NCBI GenBank assembly: GCA_025061835.1
Contig: JANXAC010000013.1
Location: 1 to 41,627, forward strand
Direction of reading: 5' to 3'
From: Spirochaetota bacterium
GTDB taxonomy: Bacteria > Spirochaetota > Brevinematia > DTOW01
Length of the DNA stretch: 41,627 nt
Under the pieces are notes generated by a model. That model was not told the DNA's origin and did no database searches. It worked only from the letters and a program-made list of their open reading frames with translations. The translations under genes were made by a program, and so were the position numbers. This document shows, in pieces, positions 12,392 to 41,627 of the stretch (positions within the stretch are counted from its first letter, which is position 1; each line of letters starts with the position of its first letter).

Positions 12392-15349
12392 TTACTCCTC
12401 AACCTCATTAACCATCTTCCTATATCTATTTATCAATTCAAGATATTTTTTCCTAATGTGGGAGTCTTTAATATTCACATTCACTCTTGTATCAACGATG
12501 TTTGTAACATTGATTGGTTTATACTCTTTAGGTTTCTCGGCTTCTCTCCTCTCCGAAATACCTCTCTCAAACATACCTTTTTCATACTCAAGGATATTGA
12601 ATTCAACTCTTTGTGTCTTATCGTAAGCAACTTGAAGTTTTCGTTCTTTTACCTTATTCAGTATATCTTCAAGTTCTTCTCTTATTTTGCTTGCTTGCGA
12701 GCCTCCAGCACTCTTGTTTTCAAGCTCTCTGGCTTTTCTTATCGCTTCTTCTAGCATCTTCTCAAGTTGTCTTACCTCTTCTTCTCCAAATCCTTCCTCA
12801 ACCATCTCCTTGAGCATTTTGGATATCTGCCTATACATTTCCATTAACTCACTCGCACTAACACCAGAAGGAGATAAATTAAAACTATCATTAAGTTCAT
12901 CATAAAGTTCAAGCAGTTTCGCAAGAGTAAATGAAGTTTTATCAATCATATTCAAAACACTCAATGACACCGACATAATCGCACCACTTGATATAGCATC
13001 TGTGAATAGATTAAAGTCCTTCTCTATCTCTCTGAAAGCATACTCAATCTCTGAATAAACACCTGCTGTAGAAGGATTGACTGAAAATGTGTCAAGAAAG
13101 TCTCTAACAACAAGCCTAAAATCTTTCAACGCTTGTGAAACATTACCAAAGTCTTCCCTCAAAAATTCAGTGTTTATTTTGTTCTCTCTCAATCCAAGTT
13201 TGTCAATGTTCTTCCTAGATACCGAAAGCCTGTATTGAGAAGATAAAATACCAAAATAAGTCTCCCAAAACCTATCATTCTGTCTTCTAGTCATCTCAGA
13301 GTAGTTCCTCATAATCTCTCTAAACATCTCAAAGTCAATATCTTTAAAGAAATTAGATATTTCACTTTCACTCATCATTTTACGTTCCTTAAGAGATCTC
13401 TCAAGTTGCTTTACTTTATCAAGAAAACTGGTCTTGAATTCACTACTCATTCTTGAGAATTCTTCACTCTTTAGAAATTCTTTGAGTTTCTCATCAAACT
13501 CGCTTAAATCACGATTCCTAACGCCTTCCTTCAAACTTTCTTCTAACTCTCTCAAGTCAGAAATTGATTTCAAGACATCCCTAAACTCAAGTATCCTGTT
13601 TATCTCCATCTCAAGTTCATTAAGTGCTTTTGTAATATCCTCAAGTTTCTTTGAAACTTGCGATGGCTCAAATGTTTTGTCTCTTGACAACTTATCCACA
13701 ATCTCTCTAAACTCTTTATCATTTAGCAATCTTTCTAACTTCGTGGATATCTGTTCAAGTCTTTCAAACTCCTCCTTAAGCCCACCAGTCCTGTCAAGTT
13801 GTTGGTAAATGTCCTTTACATTCCTTGAAAACTCAACGAGATTAGTTGAAAGACTTTTGAGAGACTGTAATTTTTCAGAAATTTTTGATTGAGACACATT
13901 CCTCCTACTTAGCTGATACCTAGTGTTTAAAGTATCATCCTTTTGTTTTGATACCTCGTCTTTCAGATCCTGTAGTCCTTGATTTAGCATCCTAGCAATC
14001 TGTGAGAAGGTAGGTATGTAAATACTCCTTTTACCAACACCTACTGCACCGAACAAGTCCTTCGCATACACATAAACACTTATGTAATCACCAGGTAGGA
14101 ACCCAGAGGAATTTAAAGAGAACTTGAAGTTCCCATCGTAGGAGAATGAAATATTTTTGTTGTTTGTATTAAATCGTTTTTCAAGACCTGTAAGTGAGTT
14201 ACTTACAATTACTTCCATCCAACTTGAGACAATCCGATCACTATCGGTTATCTCACCATATCCATCTAGAACAAACCTTGGTATCAGAGTAAGGTCTCTG
14301 TCTGGATACTTTATCTCAACAATAGGTATATCGTTGTCTCTCACTAAAAATGTTACATTCTCAATCTTAAATTGCCTACCAAATACATCGGTAATATTTA
14401 TGTTCATAACCGAATTAGATTTAGCAACAAACGGTATGATTATTTTATTACTCTTATCGCCATACTTCCATACAGAACCTTTCCCAGAACTAACTTTTGA
14501 GACATCGTAAGAGAATTCAAAATTCATAACCACTCTGCTACCTCTCACTACTTCAGTAGAGGGAATATAGTCGTAAGATGCTATTGGTATGTCTCTGTAA
14601 AAAATATCAATCCTCTGATTGAGGAGTGTGAATTCTGATAAGTATTTAGGAGTTAGCGTTCTTATATGTCTAATAAGCCCGTATTTTCTTACGAATAGTT
14701 GAATATTCGTTGAAGTCGTTGTCATCTCTCCGATGAAGGTGTTATTTGATCTCTCTAATGCTATCGTTCTCTCCGCTGATACGAAGAATTCTCCTGAATA
14801 GTTTGGTATGACTTCTACTCTAAATGGTATGGATAGAGATACGAATTTACTATACTCAACCTTAGGATCAGCGAAAGTAAAGTTCAAAAACTCCTTCAGA
14901 CCTCTGTTTTCAATTAGTAGCAGATTTGATACGAGGATTGTAGCAATTAGAAGACCTATGAAGGTTAGAGTTTGGTTTTTGAGTATCCTAGTTAGGGATA
15001 AGTCTAAAGAACTAACTTCACTATTGTTTAAAAGATTAAAACCTTTTTTGTGTGCTTCTACGAGCGAGTCAATTAGAAATCTTCTCCTTGAGAAGATGAG
15101 TGTCTCTATCTTTGAGTAAGATAGAAGAAAGAAACTAGAAAGTCTGATTATGACAAATACGAGAGATGATGTTATCAAGATAACTATAAGGAATACAAAT
15201 ACCAGGGTAGGAATAAAGTAGTTGAAGTCAAATATGAGTAGGGTTATTGAGGTTGAAAGAGTTAGTAAAACCAAAGAGAGTATAATTACAACTACAAAAT
15301 TTACCAAGCCTAAAAGTTGTATTACTCTTATCTTATTGGTTAGTTCCAT
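12392..15349 (-). CDS. Large membrane protein, DUF4175-like, with coiled coils
   Basis: At 985 residues this is the longest gene in the window. Two membrane helices lie near the N-terminus (about 9-40 and 45-76) and a third at about 128-146. A beta-rich, Ig-like extracytoplasmic region follows to about 450, with repeated strand patterns such as 'SRVVMNFEFSYDV' and 'GDYISVYVYAKDLFGAVG'. The C-terminal half (about 450-985) is a long, strongly charged coiled-coil and helical stretch. The order matches DUF4175-type proteins of diderm bacteria, whose role is unknown. It may span the periplasm or tether envelope layers. No partner gene adjoins it: 221 bp separate it from the FlgN-like gene, and the gene on its other side is divergent. 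Confidence 0.65.
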   Translation of the reverse strand: MELTNKIRVIQLLGLVNFVVVIILSLVLLTLSTSITLLIFDFNYFIPTLVFVFLIVILITSSLVFVIIRLSSFFLLSYSKIETLIFSRRRFLIDSLVEAHKKGFNLLNNSEVSSLDLSLTRILKNQTLTFIGLLIATILVSNLLLIENRGLKEFLNFTFADPKVEYSKFVSLSIPFRVEVIPNYSGEFFVSAERTIALERSNNTFIGEMTTTSTNIQLFVRKYGLIRHIRTLTPKYLSEFTLLNQRIDIFYRDIPIASYDYIPSTEVVRGSRVVMNFEFSYDVSKVSSGKGSVWKYGDKSNKIIIPFVAKSNSVMNINITDVFGRQFKIENVTFLVRDNDIPIVEIKYPDRDLTLIPRFVLDGYGEITDSDRIVSSWMEVIVSNSLTGLEKRFNTNNKNISFSYDGNFKFSLNSSGFLPGDYISVYVYAKDLFGAVGVGKRSIYIPTFSQIARMLNQGLQDLKDEVSKQKDDTLNTRYQLSRRNVSQSKISEKLQSLKSLSTNLVEFSRNVKDIYQQLDRTGGLKEEFERLEQISTKLERLLNDKEFREIVDKLSRDKTFEPSQVSKKLEDITKALNELEMEINRILEFRDVLKSISDLRELEESLKEGVRNRDLSEFDEKLKEFLKSEEFSRMSSEFKTSFLDKVKQLERSLKERKMMSESEISNFFKDIDFEMFREIMRNYSEMTRRQNDRFWETYFGILSSQYRLSVSRKNIDKLGLRENKINTEFLREDFGNVSQALKDFRLVVRDFLDTFSVNPSTAGVYSEIEYAFREIEKDFNLFTDAISSGAIMSVSLSVLNMIDKTSFTLAKLLELYDELNDSFNLSPSGVSASELMEMYRQISKMLKEMVEEGFGEEEVRQLEKMLEEAIRKARELENKSAGGSQASKIREELEDILNKVKERKLQVAYDKTQRVEFNILEYEKGMFERGISERREAEKPKEYKPINVTNIVDTRVNVNIKDSHIRKKYLELINRYRKMVNEVEE

Positions 15350-21738: not shown

Positions 21739-22084
21739 TTTATCATTTCCGTCTAAAATACACAAGATAAGGAATTTGAGAGACTTTAGGAAGTTGGTAG
21801 AGAGGGGTAGAAAGATAGAATTTAAGTTTGGTTTTGTAAGGGTGTGTTATAATGACATGGATGTTTTAAGAGTTGCTGTATCCGTCTCTAAAAAGTTCAG
21901 TAAGAAATCGGTAGTTAGGAATAGAGTGAAAAGAATTATCACTGAAATTCTAAGAAATAAGAAGCATCAACTTAAGAGTTTTGATCTGTGGATACACATA
22001 AAGTCATTCGTAGAACCTGAGTTGATAAAGGAAGATATTCTTGTTTTTACCTCTTCGTTAAGAGTAAGAGAGAGTGATTACTAG
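21710..22084 (+). CDS. rnpA: Ribonuclease P protein component
   Basis: RnpA binds the catalytic RNase P RNA and helps process the 5' end of pre-tRNAs. The 124-residue frame includes the family core: 'GFVRVCYND' leading to '[20 protein letters not shown]' and 'KRIITEILR', where the RNR motif is the RNA-binding signature. The start at 21710 overlaps hisIE by 29 bp; a later start inside '[18 protein letters not shown]' would also leave the core intact. In most bacteria rnpA follows rpmH (L34) and precedes yidD and yidC. Here it sits between hisIE and tsaC. Confidence 0.93.
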
Positions 22085-22088
22085 TGTT

Positions 22089-23162
22089 ATGAAGACTAAG
22101 ATAATAAGGGTATCTCCTGAAAGTATTGAGACAGATTACGAGGTTTTAATAGAACCTGCCACTGCTTTGAGGAATGGTGAATTAGTCGCTTTTCCAACTG
22201 AAACGGTATATGGTATCGGCGCAAATTCACTTCTAGATAATTCTGTCAGAAAGATATTTGAAGTCAAGGGAAGACCACAAGATAATCCTCTAATAGTTCA
22301 TCTACACTCAAAAGATGTTATAAGAAAATATGCTATTATATCAAACGAAGTTGAAGAAGGTATAATTAGCAAGTTTATGCCAGGACCTATAACTGTTGTT
22401 CTTAAGAGTTGTGGTGTTGTGTCTTCAGTTGTAACCGCTGGACTCGATACCGTTGGAATAAGGATACCTTACAACATTATCGCTCAAAAACTTTTAGAAC
22501 TTGCGTGTGTTCCAGTTTCAGCTCCGAGTGCTAACCTGTCGGGTAAGCCAAGTGCTACCGATCCAGTTTCCGTTATTGAAGAGTTCAGAGGGAAAATACC
22601 ATATATAATAGATGGCGGTAGGACTCATATAGGAATTGAGTCAACAGTTGTATTGGTTAAGGAAGAGAGTGATAGGTTTAAGATACTTATACTAAGACCT
22701 GGTTTCATTACGAAGGAAGACCTTGAGGGTTTTGTCAGTGAAAATAAGTTTTCAAAACCAGTTTTTGTTGAGTATTCTGAGAACTTTTCATCTGAAAGAC
22801 CAATCTCTCCGGGACAGAAGTATAAACACTACTCTCCAAAGTCAAAAGTAGTTCTTTTGAATGATAAGAGTAAGTTGGATGAATTCTTTAAGGTTGTTGG
22901 AAATGGTAGAATAGGAATTTTAGGAAAGTTTGATTTTATAAATGACTTGGAACTTTATCTTATAAATTTGGGTTTTAAGGATATTCTTAAGGTGGAATGG
23001 TGCGGGAACGATTTACTTGAGTGCGCTAGAAATCTCTTTCTATACTATAGGTTTTTTGACAGAGAAGGTGTTGAATTCCTATTTGTTGAAAACCTCGGTA
23101 ATAGTGGGATAGCATATTCAATTATGAATAGGGTGAAAAAGTCTGCTAGTTATGTTCTTTAG
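22089..23162 (+). CDS. tsaC: Threonylcarbamoyl-AMP synthase (Sua5/YwlC/TsaC type)
   Basis: The enzyme makes L-threonylcarbamoyl-AMP from threonine, bicarbonate and ATP, the first step of t6A37 formation in tRNAs reading ANN codons. The YrdC domain (about 20-200) shows 'GELVAFPTETVYGIGANSL', 'KGRPQDNPLIVH', 'FMPGPITVVLK' and 'VSAPSANLSGKPSATDP'. A linker with 'SPGQKYKHYSPKSKVVLL' leads to the C-terminal Sua5 domain, so this is the long Sua5 form (357 residues from the ATG at 22089). An in-frame GTG at 22074 would overlap rnpA by 11 bp and is an alternative start. The 3' end overlaps the convergent ABC ATPase gene by 17 bp. Confidence 0.95.
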   Translation: MKTKIIRVSPESIETDYEVLIEPATALRNGELVAFPTETVYGIGANSLLDNSVRKIFEVKGRPQDNPLIVHLHSKDVIRKYAIISNEVEEGIISKFMPGPITVVLKSCGVVSSVVTAGLDTVGIRIPYNIIAQKLLELACVPVSAPSANLSGKPSATDPVSVIEEFRGKIPYIIDGGRTHIGIESTVVLVKEESDRFKILILRPGFITKEDLEGFVSENKFSKPVFVEYSENFSSERPISPGQKYKHYSPKSKVVLLNDKSKLDEFFKVVGNGRIGILGKFDFINDLELYLINLGFKDILKVEWCGNDLLECARNLFLYYRFFDREGVEFLFVENLGNSGIAYSIMNRVKKSASYVL

Positions 23163-23880
23163 ACTTTTGTCGTCTTTTTCTTTGGTATGTTTCTTGTTCT
23201 ACTCTTTTATGTTCTGTAATTGTAATCTTTGAGTTTATAATTGATATTATTTTGTTTGAGTATTCCATCACATCCTGACGGTGTGTTATAAAAACCACTC
23301 CAACATTCTGCTCCTGATTTATCTTCTCTAGCAGTGATATTATCTCAAGTGAGTTCTTTTCATCAAGGTTAGCAGTAGGTTCGTCTGCGAATATGTATTT
23401 AGGAGACCTTATTAGTGCTCTTGCTAGAGAAATTCTCTGTTTTTGACCACCAGACAAGATCCTAACATCACTGTTTATATACTCTTCCATTCCTACATAT
23501 CTTAAGATTTCTTTCGCTTTATCAACATACTTACTTTTAGACTCACCTGATATGTATATAGGAAGAAGGATGTTGTCAAGGACAGAAACCTGTTCAACGA
23601 GCTCAAATGTTTGGAATACAAAACCAATGTTTTTGCCGCGATAGTTTGAGATGAATAGATCCTTAAAGACTCTAGGCACAACTCCATCATAAACTATATA
23701 TCCTGAAGATGGTGGTTCAACTCCTGCTATGATCTTAAGAAGTGTTGTTTTACCACAGCCAGACTCACCTGTCAGAGATATGAAATCACCTTCTCTTATC
23801 TCAAAGGAGACATTTTCAAAAATGACCTTCTTCTTTTTGTCAACGAAGAAGTGTTTTGACAGGTTTACAACCTCTATCAT
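23146..23880 (-). CDS. ABC transporter ATPase, LolD/MacB/FtsE-like
   Basis: A 244-residue ATPase with all core motifs: Walker A GESGCGKTT (about 38-46), Q-loop 'GFVFQTFELVEQVSVLDNIL' (which matches LolD/MacB/FtsE-type subunits), ABC signature LSGGQKQRISLARAL, Walker B 'YIFADEPTANLDEK' and the H-loop 'VVFITHRQ'. The C-terminus is short and lysine/arginine-rich. No permease gene is adjacent. Its ATG shares an A with the stop codon of rpmC (TAATG on the minus strand), so it is translated by coupling with ribosomal protein L29, in the position normally occupied by S17. Confidence 0.92.
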   Translation of the reverse strand: MIEVVNLSKHFFVDKKKKVIFENVSFEIREGDFISLTGESGCGKTTLLKIIAGVEPPSSGYIVYDGVVPRVFKDLFISNYRGKNIGFVFQTFELVEQVSVLDNILLPIYISGESKSKYVDKAKEILRYVGMEEYINSDVRILSGGQKQRISLARALIRSPKYIFADEPTANLDEKNSLEIISLLEKINQEQNVGVVFITHRQDVMEYSNKIISIINSKITITEHKRVEQETYQRKRRQKSKEHN

Positions 23881-24095
23881 TACTTCCTTATACCAAGTTC
23901 TTTCTCTCTTATGAGGGTTTTTATCAATGCTATTAATCTTCTAGTTCTTCTAATTTTCATCGGGTTATCAGGTTGTTTGGTTGATTTGCTTATGATCATT
24001 GATGTATACTCTGATGTAAATTTCTCAAGCTCTTTTTTGAGTTCGTCTATTTTCATATTTTGGTAAAGTTGTTTTGTCTTTTTTGTAAAGGACAT
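23880..24095 (-). CDS. rpmC: 50S ribosomal protein L29
   Basis: A 71-residue protein near the polypeptide exit tunnel of the large subunit. The family pattern is clear: the N-terminal helix 'MKIDELKKELEKFTSEY', and the C-terminal 'KIRRTRRLIALIKTLIREKE'. It carries a roughly 13-residue extension before the usual MK start, but a strong AGGAGG upstream of the first ATG on the minus strand supports this start. It is the last ribosomal gene of the fragment; the next gene is the ABC ATPase. Confidence 0.95.
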   Translation of the reverse strand: MSFTKKTKQLYQNMKIDELKKELEKFTSEYTSMIISKSTKQPDNPMKIRRTRRLIALIKTLIREKELGIRK

Positions 24096-24105
24096 TGTTA
24101 TCCTC

Positions 24106-24525
24106 CTAGAGTATTTCGCTTCTTTTGATTAATTTAACATTGATACCTATTTTTGCGGAGATTTTTTTTGCAATCTTTTTTGAAAACTCTTCATCTACAC
24201 CAGACCATTCAAATATCACCTTACCTCTTACTACTGCTGCTTCCCAGTGATCAATATCTGACTTACCTTTACCCATTCTTGTCTCAAGAGGTCTTTTCGT
24301 GCGAGACCTGTCGGGGAAAACCCTCAACCAGAATTTACCACCTTTTGGCATCTGTCTTGACAAAAGGACGCGGACTGTTTCTATCTGCTTATCTGTTATG
24401 AATGTAGGCTCAAGTGCAATCACACCGTACTCTCCGAAAGCAAGATGTGTATCAGTAGCAACTCCGTTTAACTTTGCGGTGTGTGGCTTTCTCCATTTTG
24501 GGTTAGCGGGACTTAACAAAGGCAT
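24106..24525 (-). CDS. rplP: 50S ribosomal protein L16
   Basis: A 139-residue large-subunit protein at the A-site side of the peptidyl transferase centre. Family features include 'HLAFGEYGVIALEPTFIT', 'QMPKGGKFWLRVFPDR', 'KRPLETRMGKGKSDIDHW' and 'VVRGKVIFEWSGVDEE'. The N-terminus 'PLLSPANPKWRKPH' departs from the usual 'MLMPKRTKYRKQ' form but is in place. AGGAGG lies before the ATG on the minus strand. It lies 10 nt downstream of rpsC and 10 nt upstream of rpmC. Confidence 0.97.
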   Translation of the reverse strand: MPLLSPANPKWRKPHTAKLNGVATDTHLAFGEYGVIALEPTFITDKQIETVRVLLSRQMPKGGKFWLRVFPDRSRTKRPLETRMGKGKSDIDHWEAAVVRGKVIFEWSGVDEEFSKKIAKKISAKIGINVKLIKRSEIL

Positions 24526-24535
24526 AACCTACCTC

Positions 24536-25165
24536 CTATTCATATATCCAGACTTTTACACCGACTATTCCTACGGTGCTGTTTGCTTCAGCAAAGCCGT
24601 ATTTTACCTTTGCTGTTAATGTACTTAATGGAATAGTTCCAAACTTAAGCTCTTCTGATCTAGCAACATCAACACCACCCAATCTCCCAGAGCATCTTAT
24701 TCTTATACCTTTTACTCCTAAATCAACTGCTTTCTGTAATGCTCTTCTCATCGCTCGCTTGTAAGGTATCCTCATCTCAATCTGTTTTGCTATGTTTTCT
24801 GCAACTATCTGTGCGTCCGTGTCAGGTCTCTTTATCTCAATAACTGATACATTAAGTTCTTTATCTGAACTTTTTAGGACATTATTTCTTATCTCTTCCT
24901 CAAGTAGCTTAATTTCCGTTCCTTTTCTACCTATTATCACGCCAGGTTGTGAAGTGTAAATAATTACATCAATCCTAGAAGCAAACCTAGATATTTCAAT
25001 CTTTGAGATACCTGATAGTCTATACCTTGATGTTATGAATTTTCTTATATTGTTGTCTTCAACTACATTATTAACTTGTTCTTCTCTGCTTGAAGCAATC
25101 CAGTTTGAAATCCATTTTTCAGATATTCCTACTCTCAATCCGAATGGATGAACTTTCTGACCCAT
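24536..25165 (-). CDS. rpsC: 30S ribosomal protein S3
   Basis: A 209-residue small-subunit head protein forming part of the mRNA entry site. It has the N-terminal 'MGQKVHPFGLRVG', a KH domain with 'PGVIIGRKGTEIKLLEEEI', and the C-terminal 'RAMRRALQKAVDLGVKGIRI' followed by 'CSGRLGGVDVARSE'. AGGAGG lies 8 nt before the ATG on the minus strand. Its length is at the short end for S3. It starts 3 nt after the rplV stop. Confidence 0.97.
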   Translation of the reverse strand: MGQKVHPFGLRVGISEKWISNWIASSREEQVNNVVEDNNIRKFITSRYRLSGISKIEISRFASRIDVIIYTSQPGVIIGRKGTEIKLLEEEIRNNVLKSSDKELNVSVIEIKRPDTDAQIVAENIAKQIEMRIPYKRAMRRALQKAVDLGVKGIRIRCSGRLGGVDVARSEELKFGTIPLSTLTAKVKYGFAEANSTVGIVGVKVWIYE

Positions 25166-25168
25166 ATA

Positions 25169-25522
25169 CTATGCCTCCTTTTTCTGAATTTCATCTGATA
25201 CAAGAACATATACACTAGAAAACCTTCTTCTTATTATGTCTGCACTACCTCTTGATCTCGGTATAACTCTTTTTAGTGAGATTGACTGATTTACCTTAAT
25301 GTCTTTCACATAAACATCCTTCATTTCCGATTTAGAACCTTTGTGTTTCAAGTTCGCATAAGCGGATTTCAAAGCCTTTGAAAGGAGTTTTGCTCCTTTG
25401 TGCGGTAGGATGTCTAGATAGGATAATACAACATCCAGTCTTCTTCCTTTTACTACATTAACAAACCTTACCATCTTTTTTTGAGATATTTTCAGATACT
25501 TTGCTCTACAAACTGCTTCCAT
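25169..25522 (-). CDS. rplV: 50S ribosomal protein L22
   Basis: A 117-residue protein lining the exit tunnel. Typical segments are 'AKYLKISQKKMVRFVNVVKG', 'LDILPHKGAKLLSKALKSAY' with 'ANLKHKG', and the tip region 'SLKRVIPRSRGSADIIRRRF'. A good AAGGAGG ribosome binding site precedes the ATG on the minus strand. The gene order rpsS-rplV-rpsC-rplP-rpmC is standard here. Confidence 0.96.
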   Translation of the reverse strand: MEAVCRAKYLKISQKKMVRFVNVVKGRRLDVVLSYLDILPHKGAKLLSKALKSAYANLKHKGSKSEMKDVYVKDIKVNQSISLKRVIPRSRGSADIIRRRFSSVYVLVSDEIQKKEA

Positions 25523-25918: not shown

Positions 25919-27046
25919 TTAGAAGTATATAGACAATTTCCAGTAAGGACCTATTTGAACATTTTGAAATCCTATAAACGATGTGCTTAACCCTATATCA
26001 AGTTTAGCGAACCCAATCTCTCCTCCTACACCTATTGCTAAACCGAGAGACCTAGATATTTGATTGTTATAATAACTTAAATAGATTTTTGATAAACCTG
26101 AAAGTGAGAATATATCTGCACTCCAAAAGTTGTATCTACCACCTACTTCAGTAGAGAATTTTGTAAGAATCGTATCATCTATCGGTAGGATACTTGTACC
26201 TACTGCAAATTCACCAATAACTTCTCTTGAAAATTTGTATAATATCCCTATAGATATCATACCAAGACTTCCACTGCCAACCTCAAAGAATAATCTCCTA
26301 CCGATAAGTTCATCGGCTCCTAGTATTTTTACTTCCTTTGAGTTGTGTATAACTAATGATTTAGTGTTTTCTCTTTCTATACTAACTAATCCGCTTGCTA
26401 AACTTTCCTTGGTATCACTGTCGGATATCTTTATATTATAGTCCATTCCACTTATTACTGGAATGCTACCTCTGAATCCATTTCCTACTTTACTATAAAC
26501 CATCTGATCGTTGAGATGAATATCAACTAGTCTTTCGTTTGTTCCAGTTATCTCAATTGATATCTTACTGAAACCTACTTCTTTGTTCATAAGGATGCTA
26601 GAGTATTTCAATGATATGGTATCTGCCACTTCAAACAATGTTTCTTCAATATTATCGTTATCTAAAACTTTCTCAAGTTTGTAAGACCAGATTATATTCC
26701 CTTGATTATTATGTATATTGATTGTGTATGATAGTAAGCCTTTGTTTATAGAATATGTACTTGTTAGGTATAGGTCAGCATTTTTGTTGTTATTAACCAT
26801 TTCAGTGTAGCTATTATAATTGAAGTTAGGGGCTATAGGTTCTGATATACTATAACCTTTAAGAAATCTCATAGTGTTGTAAGAAGACATCAAAACGCCA
26901 TAGGAATATTTATTCCTTTCGTAAGTATAGTTTGTTTTTTCTTCCTTGAAAGAACTAAAGATAATTACCTTCTTGGTAGGGGTAAAACATCCAAGTAGAA
27001 TTATTGTTGTAAAAATCCATACTAAAGTTATCCATTTTATATTCAC
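25919..27046 (-). CDS. Putative outer membrane lipoprotein with barrel-like C-terminus
   Basis: A 375-residue protein with a lipoprotein signal: hydrophobic stretch then LLGC, with Cys20 as the likely lipidated residue. The middle (about 150-235) is beta-rich with repeats like carboxypeptidase-regulatory or PEGA-type folds. The last 120 residues alternate polar and hydrophobic residues with many Gly and Tyr and end in '...WKLSIYF', a pattern seen in outer membrane beta-strands with a terminal Phe. I do not recognise a family. The only start in front of the signal is a GTG with no good ribosome binding site, so the first few residues are uncertain. It lies just upstream of the ribosomal fragment on the same strand. 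Confidence 0.65.
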   Translation of the reverse strand: MNIKWITLVWIFTTIILLGCFTPTKKVIIFSSFKEEKTNYTYERNKYSYGVLMSSYNTMRFLKGYSISEPIAPNFNYNSYTEMVNNNKNADLYLTSTYSINKGLLSYTINIHNNQGNIIWSYKLEKVLDNDNIEETLFEVADTISLKYSSILMNKEVGFSKISIEITGTNERLVDIHLNDQMVYSKVGNGFRGSIPVISGMDYNIKISDSDTKESLASGLVSIERENTKSLVIHNSKEVKILGADELIGRRLFFEVGSGSLGMISIGILYKFSREVIGEFAVGTSILPIDDTILTKFSTEVGGRYNFWSADIFSLSGLSKIYLSYYNNQISRSLGLAIGVGGEIGFAKLDIGLSTSFIGFQNVQIGPYWKLSIYF

Positions 27047-32688: not shown

Positions 32689-32768
32689 GCTATCTTAATA
32701 AAAGTTGACAGATTCACAAAATTTTGATAAATTTTTATTCAAAATATCCATATGGGGAGGATAGGGAT

Positions 32769-33557
32769 ATGAGAAGGATAATATTTTCAACTATAGTGCT
32801 ACTGTGTCTGGTAGCAATTGCTGAGGGACATGGCATCGCGAGAGACATCACTGAAGGTTTCTCGTTTGACATTGGATATATGATAGGCTTCGCACCCGTT
32901 GAATATGAATTTAACTTTCTAGGAGGAGTCGGGTTGTTTCACAACCTTGATTTGCTCGTAAATCTGACAACTATCAAAATAGAAGACGATGTAGTCAAAT
33001 GGAAAGAGTTCTGGTTTATGCCAAGATTTGATGTTGGAGGGATAGGTCCCGTAATGTATAACATATTCGGACTCGGATTAGGTTATTCACTTGAACCACA
33101 CTATAGCCACAATGGCGATAATCATAGTTCTGAAGCATCAAAGCACACTTTCCCACGCAAGGTTAAAATTCATAACGGCAGTCACCACCATCACTCACGT
33201 CACAGTGATCATTATTCAAATCCCTTAACTCAAGGTAAGTTTATTGGTATGCTAAATTATTTCTCTGAAATAGACATAGTAAGCCATCTTTTCGTTACTG
33301 GATTGGAATCTAAGTTCAGCTTTGCTCCCGAACTATGGCTTGATGTAGGTCTATCACCTGCATTAATACTTGAAAGCCTAATCGGAATTCATTTGGGCGT
33401 ATTAGCAGAACTTCATATACATACGCACTTTGATGATGTACACTTTGGAGCTGGACTAGGACTTGATCTAGAACTGGATTGGTTCAGGTTTAGAATTGGT
33501 TATGATTTCCTACATAGACACCTAGGGGGAGAAGTAGGTGTTGTATTCCTACCATAA
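32769..33557 (+). CDS. Secreted, beta-rich protein with histidine-rich loop
   Basis: A 262-residue protein with a signal peptide (about 1-20, 'RRIIFSTIVLLCLVAIAEG'). The rest alternates strands typical of a small outer membrane barrel. Between about residues 111 and 148 lies a loop with 11 histidines, including a run of four, such as 'SHHHHSRHSDHY', plus several Asp and Ser residues. A single loop of this kind is a plausible site for binding zinc, nickel, copper or iron; the metal is not known. The start at 32769 is supported by GGGGAGG (754-760) and by the signal peptide; the frame extends 15 codons further upstream without one. The DsrE-like gene follows 19 nt after the stop. Confidence 0.75.
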   Translation: MRRIIFSTIVLLCLVAIAEGHGIARDITEGFSFDIGYMIGFAPVEYEFNFLGGVGLFHNLDLLVNLTTIKIEDDVVKWKEFWFMPRFDVGGIGPVMYNIFGLGLGYSLEPHYSHNGDNHSSEASKHTFPRKVKIHNGSHHHHSRHSDHYSNPLTQGKFIGMLNYFSEIDIVSHLFVTGLESKFSFAPELWLDVGLSPALILESLIGIHLGVLAELHIHTHFDDVHFGAGLGLDLELDWFRFRIGYDFLHRHLGGEVGVVFLP

Positions 33558-33576: not shown

Positions 33577-33978
33577 ATGAGAGTGGCATATCTTGTCTCA
33601 TCACCAAGAGCTGCTTCTTACAAGATAGCACAGATGGTTTTACCACAGCTTGAAGTAGGAACTCATGTAGCACAGGTTGTAGCAATGTTCTTCTTTGATG
33701 ACAACACTATGGTTCTACAGAAGGGTAATCCTATAGGTGAAAGGTTATCAAAAATAGCGAAAGAAAAAGGAATAATACTTATGATGTGCGATGCTTGCGC
33801 TCTTGAGAGAGGACTTGCAAAAGGTGAGCCTAAGTGGTGTGATCCTATAACAGGAGAAGGTAGAAAGAATCCCGCCGAGTGCTATGTTGTGAATACTGTT
33901 GATGGAGTTGAAGTTGGATGCTTCCCTGACTTGTATTCAAAACTCGCTGGAAAGGTTGATCTCGTAATAACACTTTAA
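33577..33978 (+). CDS. DsrE/DsrF-like sulfur-related protein
   Basis: A 133-residue protein of the DsrE-like superfamily, which includes sulfurtransferase and sulfur-relay subunits. Features are the N-terminal strand 'MRVAYLVSSPRA', the helix 'YKIAQMVLPQLEVGTHVAQV', then 'VVAMFFFDD', and Cys residues in 'MCDACALERGL', 'KWCDP' and 'AECYVV' with a later 'VGCFP'. A CxxC pair (MCDAC) plus further cysteines could bind metal or carry a persulfide. TTGGAGG lies 8-9 nt upstream of the ATG. It is followed by a hairpin terminator, so it ends the operon with the histidine-rich protein. Confidence 0.7.
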   Translation: MRVAYLVSSPRAASYKIAQMVLPQLEVGTHVAQVVAMFFFDDNTMVLQKGNPIGERLSKIAKEKGIILMMCDACALERGLAKGEPKWCDPITGEGRKNPAECYVVNTVDGVEVGCFPDLYSKLAGKVDLVITL

Positions 33979-34207: not shown

Positions 34208-34657
34208 CTAGAAGCTATATATCAACTTCTTCACAACTTCCTTGGCTTTTGGAACTGCTTTTTCTACGTCTTGGGATAGTTTTTCTTCATACATAACAAT
34301 CTCACTTATCGTGATTCCAACTATCCTAACCTTATTATCAACATTTATACCTAACCTTCTAGCTGTCTCTAAAGCTAACACAACACCAAACCCGTGAGAC
34401 GATATTGGTTTTAGATGTTTTGGATAATCACCTGATGGTATAATATAAACCTCACCTGCTTTTTCACCTATTACTGCATCAACAACTATCATTAAATCAT
34501 ACTCCTCAAGAAGATAGATTATCCTTGAAGGGTCCATAGTTGTCAAAAATTCAACATTTTTCTCTTTTACCTCATAAGATAATTCCTCAACAACCCTTAT
34601 ACCAACGAAATCATCACCACCTAAAGCATGCCCAACACCTACAACAACTACTTTCAT
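34208..34657 (-). CDS. Hydrogenase maturation protease-like protein
   Basis: A 149-residue protein of the HyaD/HybD/HycI family, which removes the C-terminal tail of the large subunit of [NiFe] hydrogenases after nickel insertion. The N-terminal 'VVGVGHALGGDDFVGIRVVE' has His where the family GxGN motif usually has Asn, but the acidic metal ligand region (DD) is kept. The second-site 'MIVVDAVIGEKAGEV' and the 'SSHGFGVVLALETARRLG' with conserved His are present. No hydrogenase genes lie within the window. It implies a [NiFe]-type hydrogenase elsewhere in the genome. The stop is 2 nt from tRNA-His, which is convergent with it. Confidence 0.82.
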   Translation of the reverse strand: MKVVVVGVGHALGGDDFVGIRVVEELSYEVKEKNVEFLTTMDPSRIIYLLEEYDLMIVVDAVIGEKAGEVYIIPSGDYPKHLKPISSHGFGVVLALETARRLGINVDNKVRIVGITISEIVMYEEKLSQDVEKAVPKAKEVVKKLIYSF

Positions 34658-36521: not shown

Positions 36522-38495
36522 ATGAACATAGACTACTTTCAAGTATCGCAACTCAAGATACCTGAATTATACGATTATATTGAACAAAGGAAACGAGAGT
36601 TTGAAATAAGAAACACCTCTAGGTTTGATTTACATAAGATTTTGAAGATCTTTTCTTCTTTAGGACCTGAGTTTCTAATCTTCTTATTCGGAGTTGTAAG
36701 TTTAATTCTCTTCAATACGACTGCATTTATCTTAGGTTTAACTTCTACTTTAGTTTTTATTGTTTTCTACTACACTCTATCAAATAGGATCATAAGTTTT
36801 GAGATATTTCTTAAGAATTTACATTCAAACAGGGTTAAGGTTTTACGCGATAGAAAGGTTGTTTTGGTTCCAGAAGATGATGTTTCTATTGGTGATGTTG
36901 TAGTTGTATCAAAAGGAGAGAAAGTTCCTTTTGATTTAAGAGTTATAGAGTCAAACACACTGGTAGTTGATGAGTCAAAAGTTTTTGGTGAGAATAAGAG
37001 TTCTGGTAAAAGTGCAACTACCCTTCCAAAGAAAGAATTTAAGATATACGAACTATCAAATATCATCTTTGCAAACTCCGTTATCCTGAAAGGCAACGGC
37101 AAAGGGATTGTAATAAACAAAAAAACTCAAACTCCCTACAAACCTTATTCCATAATTAACTATAGGTTTAAAATTAAAGCGTTTTCATTCAATCTACTAA
37201 TATCTTCTCTGTTATCCCTTCTTGTATTCTACATACTCAAAGACATTATAACCACAATTGTCTTTTTTTCAAGCATCTTTTTCTTGTTATCCTTGATGAG
37301 ACTAGAAATTGTGAATCACTATGCTAGATACAACCTGACTAGAAAGCTATTACAAAACGGCATTTTCTTACCAACGATCACCAAGATAGACGAACTTATA
37401 GATATAAATAGGTCAGTCATTGCTGTTGACAACTTCTCTTTTGATATCTACCATCCCATATACTACCTACCCTCAACTAACAAGCTTCTTGACGCAAACG
37501 ACTTAATCTATCACTCCCATGCATTACCAGAGGAGATACTTGAGATTTTTGTGTTGTTCGGACAGATATACCCAAAATTGAAAAGTGTTGATATGAAGAT
37601 TGTTTTTAGTTCAATTCTAAACAACCTTACATCCATCGGTTTAAGTAAAGATTATATTTCAGAATATAAAATTCTAGATGTCAATCTAAACAACTCTTTC
37701 AACTCCCTTTCAACTATTAGGATGTCGGTTAATAAGAAAAGTCCAGATGCTGTTAGTCAGGAAGAAGTAGTATTCGGAATAATAAGCCTCTCTCACTACA
37801 CTAGTCAGTTTGGTGGTATTTTAGGAATAAAAGACAAGGAAGGAATAGTCGTTATTAAGAAAACATCCGCTACTGGAATGTCAGATTTCTATCCATCTGT
37901 TGTCATAACATTCAGAAAATATGATTTTGATATTAGAGATATTGAAAAGTTTGAAAATTTTAGGTTTTTCTTGCTAACCGAATTGAACTTCAACGAGATT
38001 AGTAAGTTTCTGAATACGTTAGATGTTGATCCTTCAAGATTTCCCGCTATCGGTTTTCAGGAGTTCTTGAGTTCTTCTGATGAACAGAAGAGTTTCTTCT
38101 TGGAAAAGTTTCATATCTTCCATAGCATACCAAGGTCTAAATTTCAAGAATTCGCAAGGATGTTTTATAATGAAAGTTCGGTATTTATTGACAGTTTTGT
38201 AGAAGTATCTCAAACTGATGTTGGCTTAATGAAGATACCATATCTTGGTATGTTCTTCAGGTCTACACCTATACTATCATCCACCAAAAGTATCCTCTCA
38301 CCATTCATCCTCATCAATTATGCTAGAAAACTACCAAAAATTATCGCTAAATCAAAGGTTTTTAATATTTCTATAACAGTTTTTGCTTGTTTGGTTTTAT
38401 CTCTTCTTCATATCTATGGACTTTGGATTGCATCCATTCTTGTTCCTTTCGTTTTAGTTCCAATGGTAAACAGAACGAAAAATCTAGCAGTTTGA
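36522..38495 (+). CDS. Catalytically degenerate P-type ATPase homologue (pseudo-enzyme)
   Basis: A 657-residue membrane protein with the P-type ATPase layout: two membrane helices (about 47-88), actuator domain (about 105-200), two helices (about 220-260), a large cytoplasmic region (about 275-605), and two C-terminal helices (about 613-650). The actuator domain is recognisable: 'DVSIGDVVVVSKGEKVPFDL' and 'VDESKVFGENKSSGK' match the canonical lines, with TGES changed to FGEN (155-158). At the phosphorylation site the helix 'LLQNGIFLPTITKIDELIDI' leads to 'VIAVDNFSFD', so DKTGT has become DNFSF (303-307). TGD has become TEL, GDGxND is missing, and 'TDVGLMK' stands where ADVGIAMG is expected. 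The M4 PEGL or CPC ion site is also gone. The frame is intact. Confidence 0.78.
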   Translation: MNIDYFQVSQLKIPELYDYIEQRKREFEIRNTSRFDLHKILKIFSSLGPEFLIFLFGVVSLILFNTTAFILGLTSTLVFIVFYYTLSNRIISFEIFLKNLHSNRVKVLRDRKVVLVPEDDVSIGDVVVVSKGEKVPFDLRVIESNTLVVDESKVFGENKSSGKSATTLPKKEFKIYELSNIIFANSVILKGNGKGIVINKKTQTPYKPYSIINYRFKIKAFSFNLLISSLLSLLVFYILKDIITTIVFFSSIFFLLSLMRLEIVNHYARYNLTRKLLQNGIFLPTITKIDELIDINRSVIAVDNFSFDIYHPIYYLPSTNKLLDANDLIYHSHALPEEILEIFVLFGQIYPKLKSVDMKIVFSSILNNLTSIGLSKDYISEYKILDVNLNNSFNSLSTIRMSVNKKSPDAVSQEEVVFGIISLSHYTSQFGGILGIKDKEGIVVIKKTSATGMSDFYPSVVITFRKYDFDIRDIEKFENFRFFLLTELNFNEISKFLNTLDVDPSRFPAIGFQEFLSSSDEQKSFFLEKFHIFHSIPRSKFQEFARMFYNESSVFIDSFVEVSQTDVGLMKIPYLGMFFRSTPILSSTKSILSPFILINYARKLPKIIAKSKVFNISITVFACLVLSLLHIYGLWIASILVPFVLVPMVNRTKNLAV

Positions 38496-38749
38496 GATAG
38501 GCTTACATTTTGATATCAGTGTTATCTTTATGATATGTAGTACAACTATAAATACGATCTAGTTTCCCATTTTCAACAATGAACAATGTAACTGTTCCAG
38601 CTGATTGAGTCGTAATTAGCAACCAGAGTAAGATTCGTCTTTACTTTATGATTAAATTAAGAACTTGCTACCTTACCCTATTAGAGTTCGTTACTTGAGT
38701 CCTATCTGATTGAAAAGTACGTTAGCAGTTATTGATAATTACTAGAAGT

Positions 38750-41015: not shown

Positions 41016-41045
41016 AAAAAGGGGGCCAAGGCCCCCTGATTTTTT
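41016..41045 (-). terminator. Strong intrinsic terminator, bidirectional
   Basis: A GC-rich stem GGGGGC / GCCCCC (41021-41036) with a CAAG loop is flanked by a run of A on its left (41016-41020) and of T on its right (41040-41045). On the minus strand it directly follows the stop of the CBM9-like gene at 41044 and ends in five U. It could also stop transcripts from the plus strand. Confidence 0.88.
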
Positions 41046-41627
41046 ACTGAATCTGGTATTGTATCATAGGAATGATAGAATAATCATTTGTTCCTACGGT
41101 CTCGTATTCATAGTTACTTGTGTGGTTTGTATTTACGACACTGAAGCCAACTTTAATATTATCTCCAGTATTCAATCCCAATGCAGATAGTTTAATTCTA
41201 AACTCTATCGCTTGAGCATTACTAACGGGTTTTGGTTGAGCCAGCCAGTTTGTTGGGGTGTTTGACCAGTTTTCAATAGGATTGTTATCGTATGTGTTTA
41301 AGACACCCCAAGCTTCACCTGGAGTTGAAGATTTACTATTATACAACAGGAAGAAATCAAATGGAGCTTCATTAGTCTGATTAGCGTTAATCCAAGAGTA
41401 TACATCTTTCAATACATTCGTTCCTGTCATATCGTTAGTTGAGATGAATAGTATGTTTATAAGACCATCGTCTGAGATTCCTGGATACCAGGATGAGTCA
41501 CGGAACAAAACGGCGACATATAAGAAAGTACCGTCATTTGTGATCAGCATATTGGTAATGTCTGCTCCTGCTCCACCTTGAGTATCATTAGTAGGGTCAT
41601 CTACGCTTAGCGCATCGCTCCATCCTG
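41044..41627 (-). CDS. CBM9/DOMON-like sugar-binding surface domain, 3' part
   Basis: The frame is open to the right edge, so the start and most likely a larger N-terminal part are outside the window. About 194 codons are seen. The visible beginning has 'GWSDALSVDDPTNDTQGG' and 'GADITNMLITNDGTFLYVAV', a pattern of CBM9-like or DOMON-type carbohydrate/ligand-binding beta sandwiches, and strands such as 'IEFRIKLSALGLNTGDNIKV' and 'VGFSVVNTN' continue it. Such domains occur in secreted enzymes and surface proteins that bind polysaccharide. The terminator follows immediately. The protein type upstream is unknown. Confidence 0.75.
   Translation of the reverse strand, partial: GWSDALSVDDPTNDTQGGAGADITNMLITNDGTFLYVAVLFRDSSWYPGISDDGLINILFISTNDMTGTNVLKDVYSWINANQTNEAPFDFFLLYNSKSSTPGEAWGVLNTYDNNPIENWSNTPTNWLAQPKPVSNAQAIEFRIKLSALGLNTGDNIKVGFSVVNTNHTSNYEYETVGTNDYSIIPMIQYQIQ

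Follow-up and report, generated by a model that had tools for sequence, protein, structure and literature searches.

The window analysed here, a stretch of 41,627 nucleotides from a Spirochaetota bacterium (contig JANXAC010000013.1), carries an open reading frame that starts with ATG at 36522 and ends with a stop codon at 38493-38495. It encodes a protein of 657 residues with no internal stop, which confirms the uninterrupted frame described in an earlier, sequence-only reading of this DNA. Judged from its sequence, the product is a real pseudo P-type ATPase with P2 ancestry, conserved within one taxonomic family and restricted to it, hereafter the pseudo-pump. Its features are collected in Table 1.

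Table 1. Features of the pseudo P-type ATPase gene (window coordinates; residue numbers of the window protein)
Feature	Coordinates	Strand	Basis
Pseudo P-type ATPase, 657 aa, full ORF	36522..38495	+	ORF, Pfam, profile comparison
M1-M2, residues ~41-95, weakly conserved hydrophobic	36642..36806	+	Hydropathy; mean identity 25-26% per helix
Actuator (A) domain, residues 97-205, with VDESKVFGEN 149-158 (TGES region)	36810..37136	+	Pfam PF00122, identity
M3-M4, residues ~217-268, no PEGL/CPC	37170..37325	+	Hydropathy, alignment
DNFSF (303-307) at DKTGT position	37428..37442	+	Alignment; D303, S306, F307 invariant in four orthologues
Reduced nucleotide-binding-like region, residues ~311-480, no recognisable KGA motif	37452..37961	+	Alignment
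TEL (486-488) at TGD position	37977..37985	+	[TS][ED][LM] in orthologues
DSFVEVSQTDVGLMK (557-571) at GDGxND...DVGIAM position	38190..38234	+	Alignment
M5-M6, residues ~607-652, no M7-M10 after	38340..38477	+	Hydropathy

The sole Pfam domain of the window protein is E1-E2_ATPase (PF00122), matched over residues 100-205 with a score of 58.5 bits (E 7.8e-16), above the curated cut-off of 28.1 bits; the orthologues score 36.9-56.5 bits. The Pfam Hydrolase domain is absent from the window protein, and no family model matches the C-terminal half, either in the window protein or in the C-half of the orthologue from a second genome, G002. Many P-type models of NCBIfam match the N-terminal half of the window protein, all far below their own cut-offs. 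The top ones are of the Mg, PMR1 and SERCA types at 50-52 bits, with P2/P3 models best. The PDB sequence matches listed are P-type pumps and cover residues ~28-207 of the window protein at most. Hydropathy predicts six helices in the full-length copies, and since it shows this six-helix core and nothing beyond it, M7-M10 are missing. Thus the P-type order of helices that had been read from the sequence stands for the core around a recognisable A domain, but not for M7-M10.

The gene is present in all five genomes examined from the taxonomic family, four of one genus (the window's, G001, G002 and G003) and one of another (G004). Three copies are intact (window, G001, G003), that of G002 is split over two contig ends, and that of G004 is cut at a contig end. 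Identity to the window protein is 45% for G003, 40% for G001, 47% and 33% for the two pieces of G002, and 34% for G004. No further genome gave a meaningful score among 13 other members of the class and a sample of 393 genomes of the phylum. A profile of the C-half matched the four genus members only among 18 genomes of the class, and found two additional weak matches (E 0.003 and 0.009) in the 393 phylum genomes; since the C-half of G004 is off its contig and was found nowhere else, absence by this profile says less for distant families. The G002 record alone was returned by a scan of a genome contig collection, and a viral contig collection returned none. In a phylogenetic tree, the five N-halves, which hold the A domain, form one clade (support 100/98) that joins the P2 rows against the P1B outgroup (100/97), in agreement with P2 ancestry, and forms, with a long branch, the sister group of all P2 rows.

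To relate the C-terminal half to P-type pumps, a profile of four orthologue C-halves was compared with 19 canonical P2-type pumps from related genomes. The full-length profile aligned to P2 pumps with a probability of 99.6% (E 6e-25), a match owed mostly to the A domain. The C-half profile was colinear with the pumps from the N region into M5, but its E-value was just 0.02 in one comparison. The soluble N/P half scored 27.3, whereas profiles with shuffled columns gave 17.0 ± 2.5 (maximum 26.5, so that none of 100 shuffles reached it) and the reversed profile 13.8, and the P part alone scored 27.2 against 15.0 ± 2.4, again reached by none of 100. The DKTGT region by itself gave no profile signal, and in the MAFFT alignment D303 is not exactly under the phosphorylated Asp; we pair the two because of the position of D303 after M4, the hydrophobic strand preceding it and its invariance. 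The spacing from T486 to D557 is 71 residues, compared with 72-74 from TGD to GDG in the P2 pump L075, and the distance from the DVG/DIG segment to the next I-L/V segment, judged by eye, is equal in the window protein and the pump. In the hhalign alignment, D557 is paired with the second Asp of GDGxND. The N/P half, which has no family match of its own, thus appears tied to canonical P2 pumps by profile comparison.

Structure prediction adds little to this picture. An AlphaFold model from the window protein and one partial orthologue had a mean pLDDT of 36.5. With canonical P2 sequences added, the mean was 46.2 and the model was limited to the A domain and some of the P segment (blocks of pLDDT 61-84); the underlying alignment misplaced the DKTGT region. 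The Foldseek matches listed are P-type pumps and cover ~96-198 columns; they are not independent evidence, because the model was built with P-type sequences. Of the homology checks proposed earlier, the Pfam A domain and the profile match to P2 pumps hold up, while the Hydrolase match is missing and the models are poor. P-type homology is nevertheless present at the sequence level, and the earlier caveat that no structural match to P-type ATPases might be found has not materialised.

The DKTGT phosphorylation motif is a defining feature of P-type ATPases. At its position the copies read DNFSF, DLSSF, DQYSF or DSFSF, and none carries the motif. The TGE(S) loop reads FGE or FNE, its Glu (E157) kept in five of five copies with no motif intact. 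The TGD position reads [TS][ED][LM] and the GDGxND position D[SC]F[VAI]E after a deletion, so that both motifs are gone, and DVGLMK occupies the DVGIAM position in the window protein. Neither a PEGL-type ion site in M4 nor the ten helices of a P2 pump are found. In one MAFFT alignment, the three full-length copies retain 9 of the 18 A-domain residues that are near-invariant in P2 pumps, compared with 2 of 48 such residues across the P1, N and P regions. The motif readings that had been given for the window protein (FGEN at 155-158, DNFSF at 303-307, TEL at 486-488) are correct, and the losses are common to the family copies wherever these are covered. Since no copy has intact motifs, they do not reflect a recent pseudogene or a sequencing error. 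M4 has no Pro in the readable copies of the window's genus. The claim that M4 lacks both Pro and Cys holds for the window protein but not for the G004 copy, which has a Pro near the PEGL position (LSSPSVMG, ~257-262 in window numbering) with no PEGL, and which may be less degenerate than the genus copies.

The conclusion that all catalytic signatures have been lost is too strong, since D303 and E157 are invariant wherever they are covered and an HAD-like pattern of T/S plus DxxxE is kept, even though the motifs are gone. In HAD enzymes, motif I has an Asp, motif II a T or S and motif IV acidic residues. In the pseudo-pump, D303 is invariant in four of four C-halves, residue 486 is T or S in all four, D557-x3-E561 is invariant there in one alignment, and every sequence has a basic residue close to where motif III would be. 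D566, G568, M570 and K571 of the 557-571 segment are likewise invariant. Because these residues and E157 survive, some HAD-type phosphate or Mg chemistry may remain. The protein could then be a re-tooled HAD-type enzyme or phospho-sensor, in which the residues kept in the P-like domain, with E157, would allow it to bind Mg and phosphate, or to accept phosphate from another donor, and the A domain would be switched without ion movement. We consider this unlikely, though the strongest of the alternatives: 59 of 313 aligned columns of the C-half (19%) are invariant anyway, the DxxxE alignment at motif IV was picked after the invariant columns had been seen and differs from the hhalign pairing of D557, and the motif III Lys, KTGT and the two Gly residues of GDG are gone. 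The more specific proposal of a P-type-derived family that no longer pumps, in which Asp phosphorylation or Mg/phosphate at a rewired HAD site with the A-domain Glu would switch the A domain in membrane signalling, is on these sequence patterns somewhat less likely still.

The neighbourhood of the gene differs between genomes. The pseudo-pump gene is followed by tsaC (Sua5/YrdC) in G001, G002 and G003; the two genes overlap in G002, and in G003 tsaC comes directly after it. In the window, tsaC is at 22074-23162, ~13 kb from the pseudo-pump, and an accD-like gene at 38732 comes next instead; upstream, in the opposite orientation, is a gene that we take from its sequence to be GatB-like. Adjacency to tsaC was set aside as a functional clue, since the window lacks it, and because this neighbour is common to G001, G002 and G003 but not the window, the neighbourhood names no pathway. 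The window block at 22074-25522 holds tsaC, an ABC ATPase and ribosomal protein genes (L16 by Pfam) as in those three genomes, with no pseudo-ATPase beside tsaC: either the gene has changed place or its surroundings were rearranged. Scans for promoters and terminators gave nothing beyond chance. Elsewhere in the window, an ORF at 32724-33557 encodes a predicted secreted or outer-membrane-like protein of 277 residues with a His-rich stretch, GSHHHHSRHSDHYS, and no Pfam match at E 1; it is followed by a DsrE-like ORF (33577-33978, below cut-off). A HycI-type hydrogenase maturation protease is encoded at 34208-34657 (48.4 bits). ORFs of 985 residues (12392-15349, reverse strand) and 375 residues (25919-27046, GTG start) have no Pfam match at 1e-5, and an ORF open at the window end (41044-41625) has no Pfam match.

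The window's genome has three matches to PF00122, namely the pseudo-pump and two P1B pumps, L044 of the Cu type and L045 of the Zn/Cd type, and no P2 pump among them. No P2-length match to PF00122 was found in the other family members, G002 having fragments at contig ends. The idea that the protein regulates a real pump is weakened by the presence of the two P1B metal pumps only. In a narrower form, it could be a regulatory partner of one of them through A-domain contacts; both are intact, and inactive relatives that regulate active ones are a common pattern among pseudoenzymes. We find this doubtful. In the window's genome the pseudo-pump is on different contigs from both pumps, a P1B pump lies ~5 kb downstream in G001 but none in the stretches read of the window, G003 and G002, and the ancestry of the pseudo-pump is P2, not P1B.

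The conservation pattern shows purifying selection with the A domain as its main target. Between the three full-length copies, pN is 0.36-0.40 against a pS of 0.75-0.82, and third codon positions vary more than first and second ones. These figures go only part of the way to the check on dN/dS that had been proposed, because pS is saturated and no dN/dS value can be given. The A domain is 62-69% identical among the three full copies, and 46-69% (mean 58%) over the ten pairs of five sequences; the N-like and P-like regions are 32-51% identical (six pairs of four sequences) and the membrane helices 18-31% on average per helix, values that are only roughly comparable, the non-A segments being measured on fewer sequences. 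As a yardstick, tsaC from the same genomes is 59-70% identical. In pairs of P2 pumps that are 34-58% identical overall, M4 is 39-73%, M5 21-61% and M6 26-78% identical, and in a P1B pump pair (G000/G001, 50% overall) the CPC helix is 69% identical. Pumps of a divergence like that of the pseudo-pump thus conserve M4 and, in most cases, M6. In this comparison of few sequences, the M5 and M6 identities of the pseudo-pump overlap those of pumps, and it is M4, which holds the ion site in pumps, that sets the two apart most clearly, because P2 pumps keep it at 39-73%. The six hydrophobic helices that remain might suggest a passive channel, leak or flippase that has kept its core with no ATP coupling, but as they are the least conserved parts and the three full copies have no common charged residue in M4-M6, this is very unlikely. 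A decaying pseudogene, as the loss of every P-type signature and the high divergence could suggest, is already contradicted by the intact frames of the three full copies (together with the assembly-cut pieces), the conserved A domain and a pN well below pS, and we give it almost no credence. Selection rather than decay, as first proposed, agrees with these frames, the family-wide orthologues and the low pN.

The reading that we prefer, with moderate confidence, is that the pseudo-pump has ceased to pump and acts in the membrane as a scaffold or sensor centred on its A domain. That pumping is lost, that the helices anchor the protein and that it is a scaffold or sensor are our inferences. From a P2-type ATPase ancestor, M7-M10 and the ion site would have been lost, and the ATP-binding and phosphorylation loops rewritten, at least partly before the genera of the family diverged, so that the ATP-driven ion transport cycle would be gone. 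The motifs indeed predict no known P-type pump cycle, in line with the proposal that the protein cannot run the Post-Albers cycle. The six helices would then be mainly a membrane anchor, and the conserved A domain with the remodelled P-like domain would form a binding or sensing platform on the cytoplasmic face that may change its partner contacts or conformation. No support emerged for a membrane shaping factor.

The pseudo-pump shares the order M1-M2, A, M3-M4, N/P insert and M5-M6 with P2-type pumps such as Listeria LMCA1, Na,K-ATPase alpha and L075-L079, the last being intact P2 pumps of 925-931 residues from related families of the same class. Its A-domain region is ~24-31% identical to that of P2 pumps of related genomes, and the hinge and DVG(I/L) segments are recognisable with similar spacing. 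Unlike them, it lacks PEGL, DKTGT, TGES, TGD, GDGxND and M7-M10, its N region is ~40 residues shorter, and its length is 657 rather than ~900 residues. The two P1B pumps of the same genome, used as the tree outgroup, have a six-helix core and an A, P, N order as in the pseudo-pump, but keep CPC, DKTGT, TGD, GDGIND and N-terminal metal-binding segments. In a recent superfamily review (PMC10654040), a word search brought up no family of inactive or pseudo-ATPases, and our search for literature on inactive or pseudo P-type ATPases found nothing direct. Among named precedents for a P-type module that takes part in signalling, the nearest that we found is the P4-ATPase-like domain in guanylyl cyclase alpha of Plasmodium, one of the apicomplexan guanylyl cyclases with such a domain, in which the conserved DKTGT Asp is kept and reported as needed (PMC7858053). 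The pseudo-pump, by contrast, has lost the DKTGT context and is not fused to a cyclase.

If our reading is true, selection on this scaffold in a bacterial lineage whose copies lack the pump motifs would show that the A domain and helical core have a function that can be separated from pumping, and the pseudo-pump lineage would offer a natural way to test what it is.
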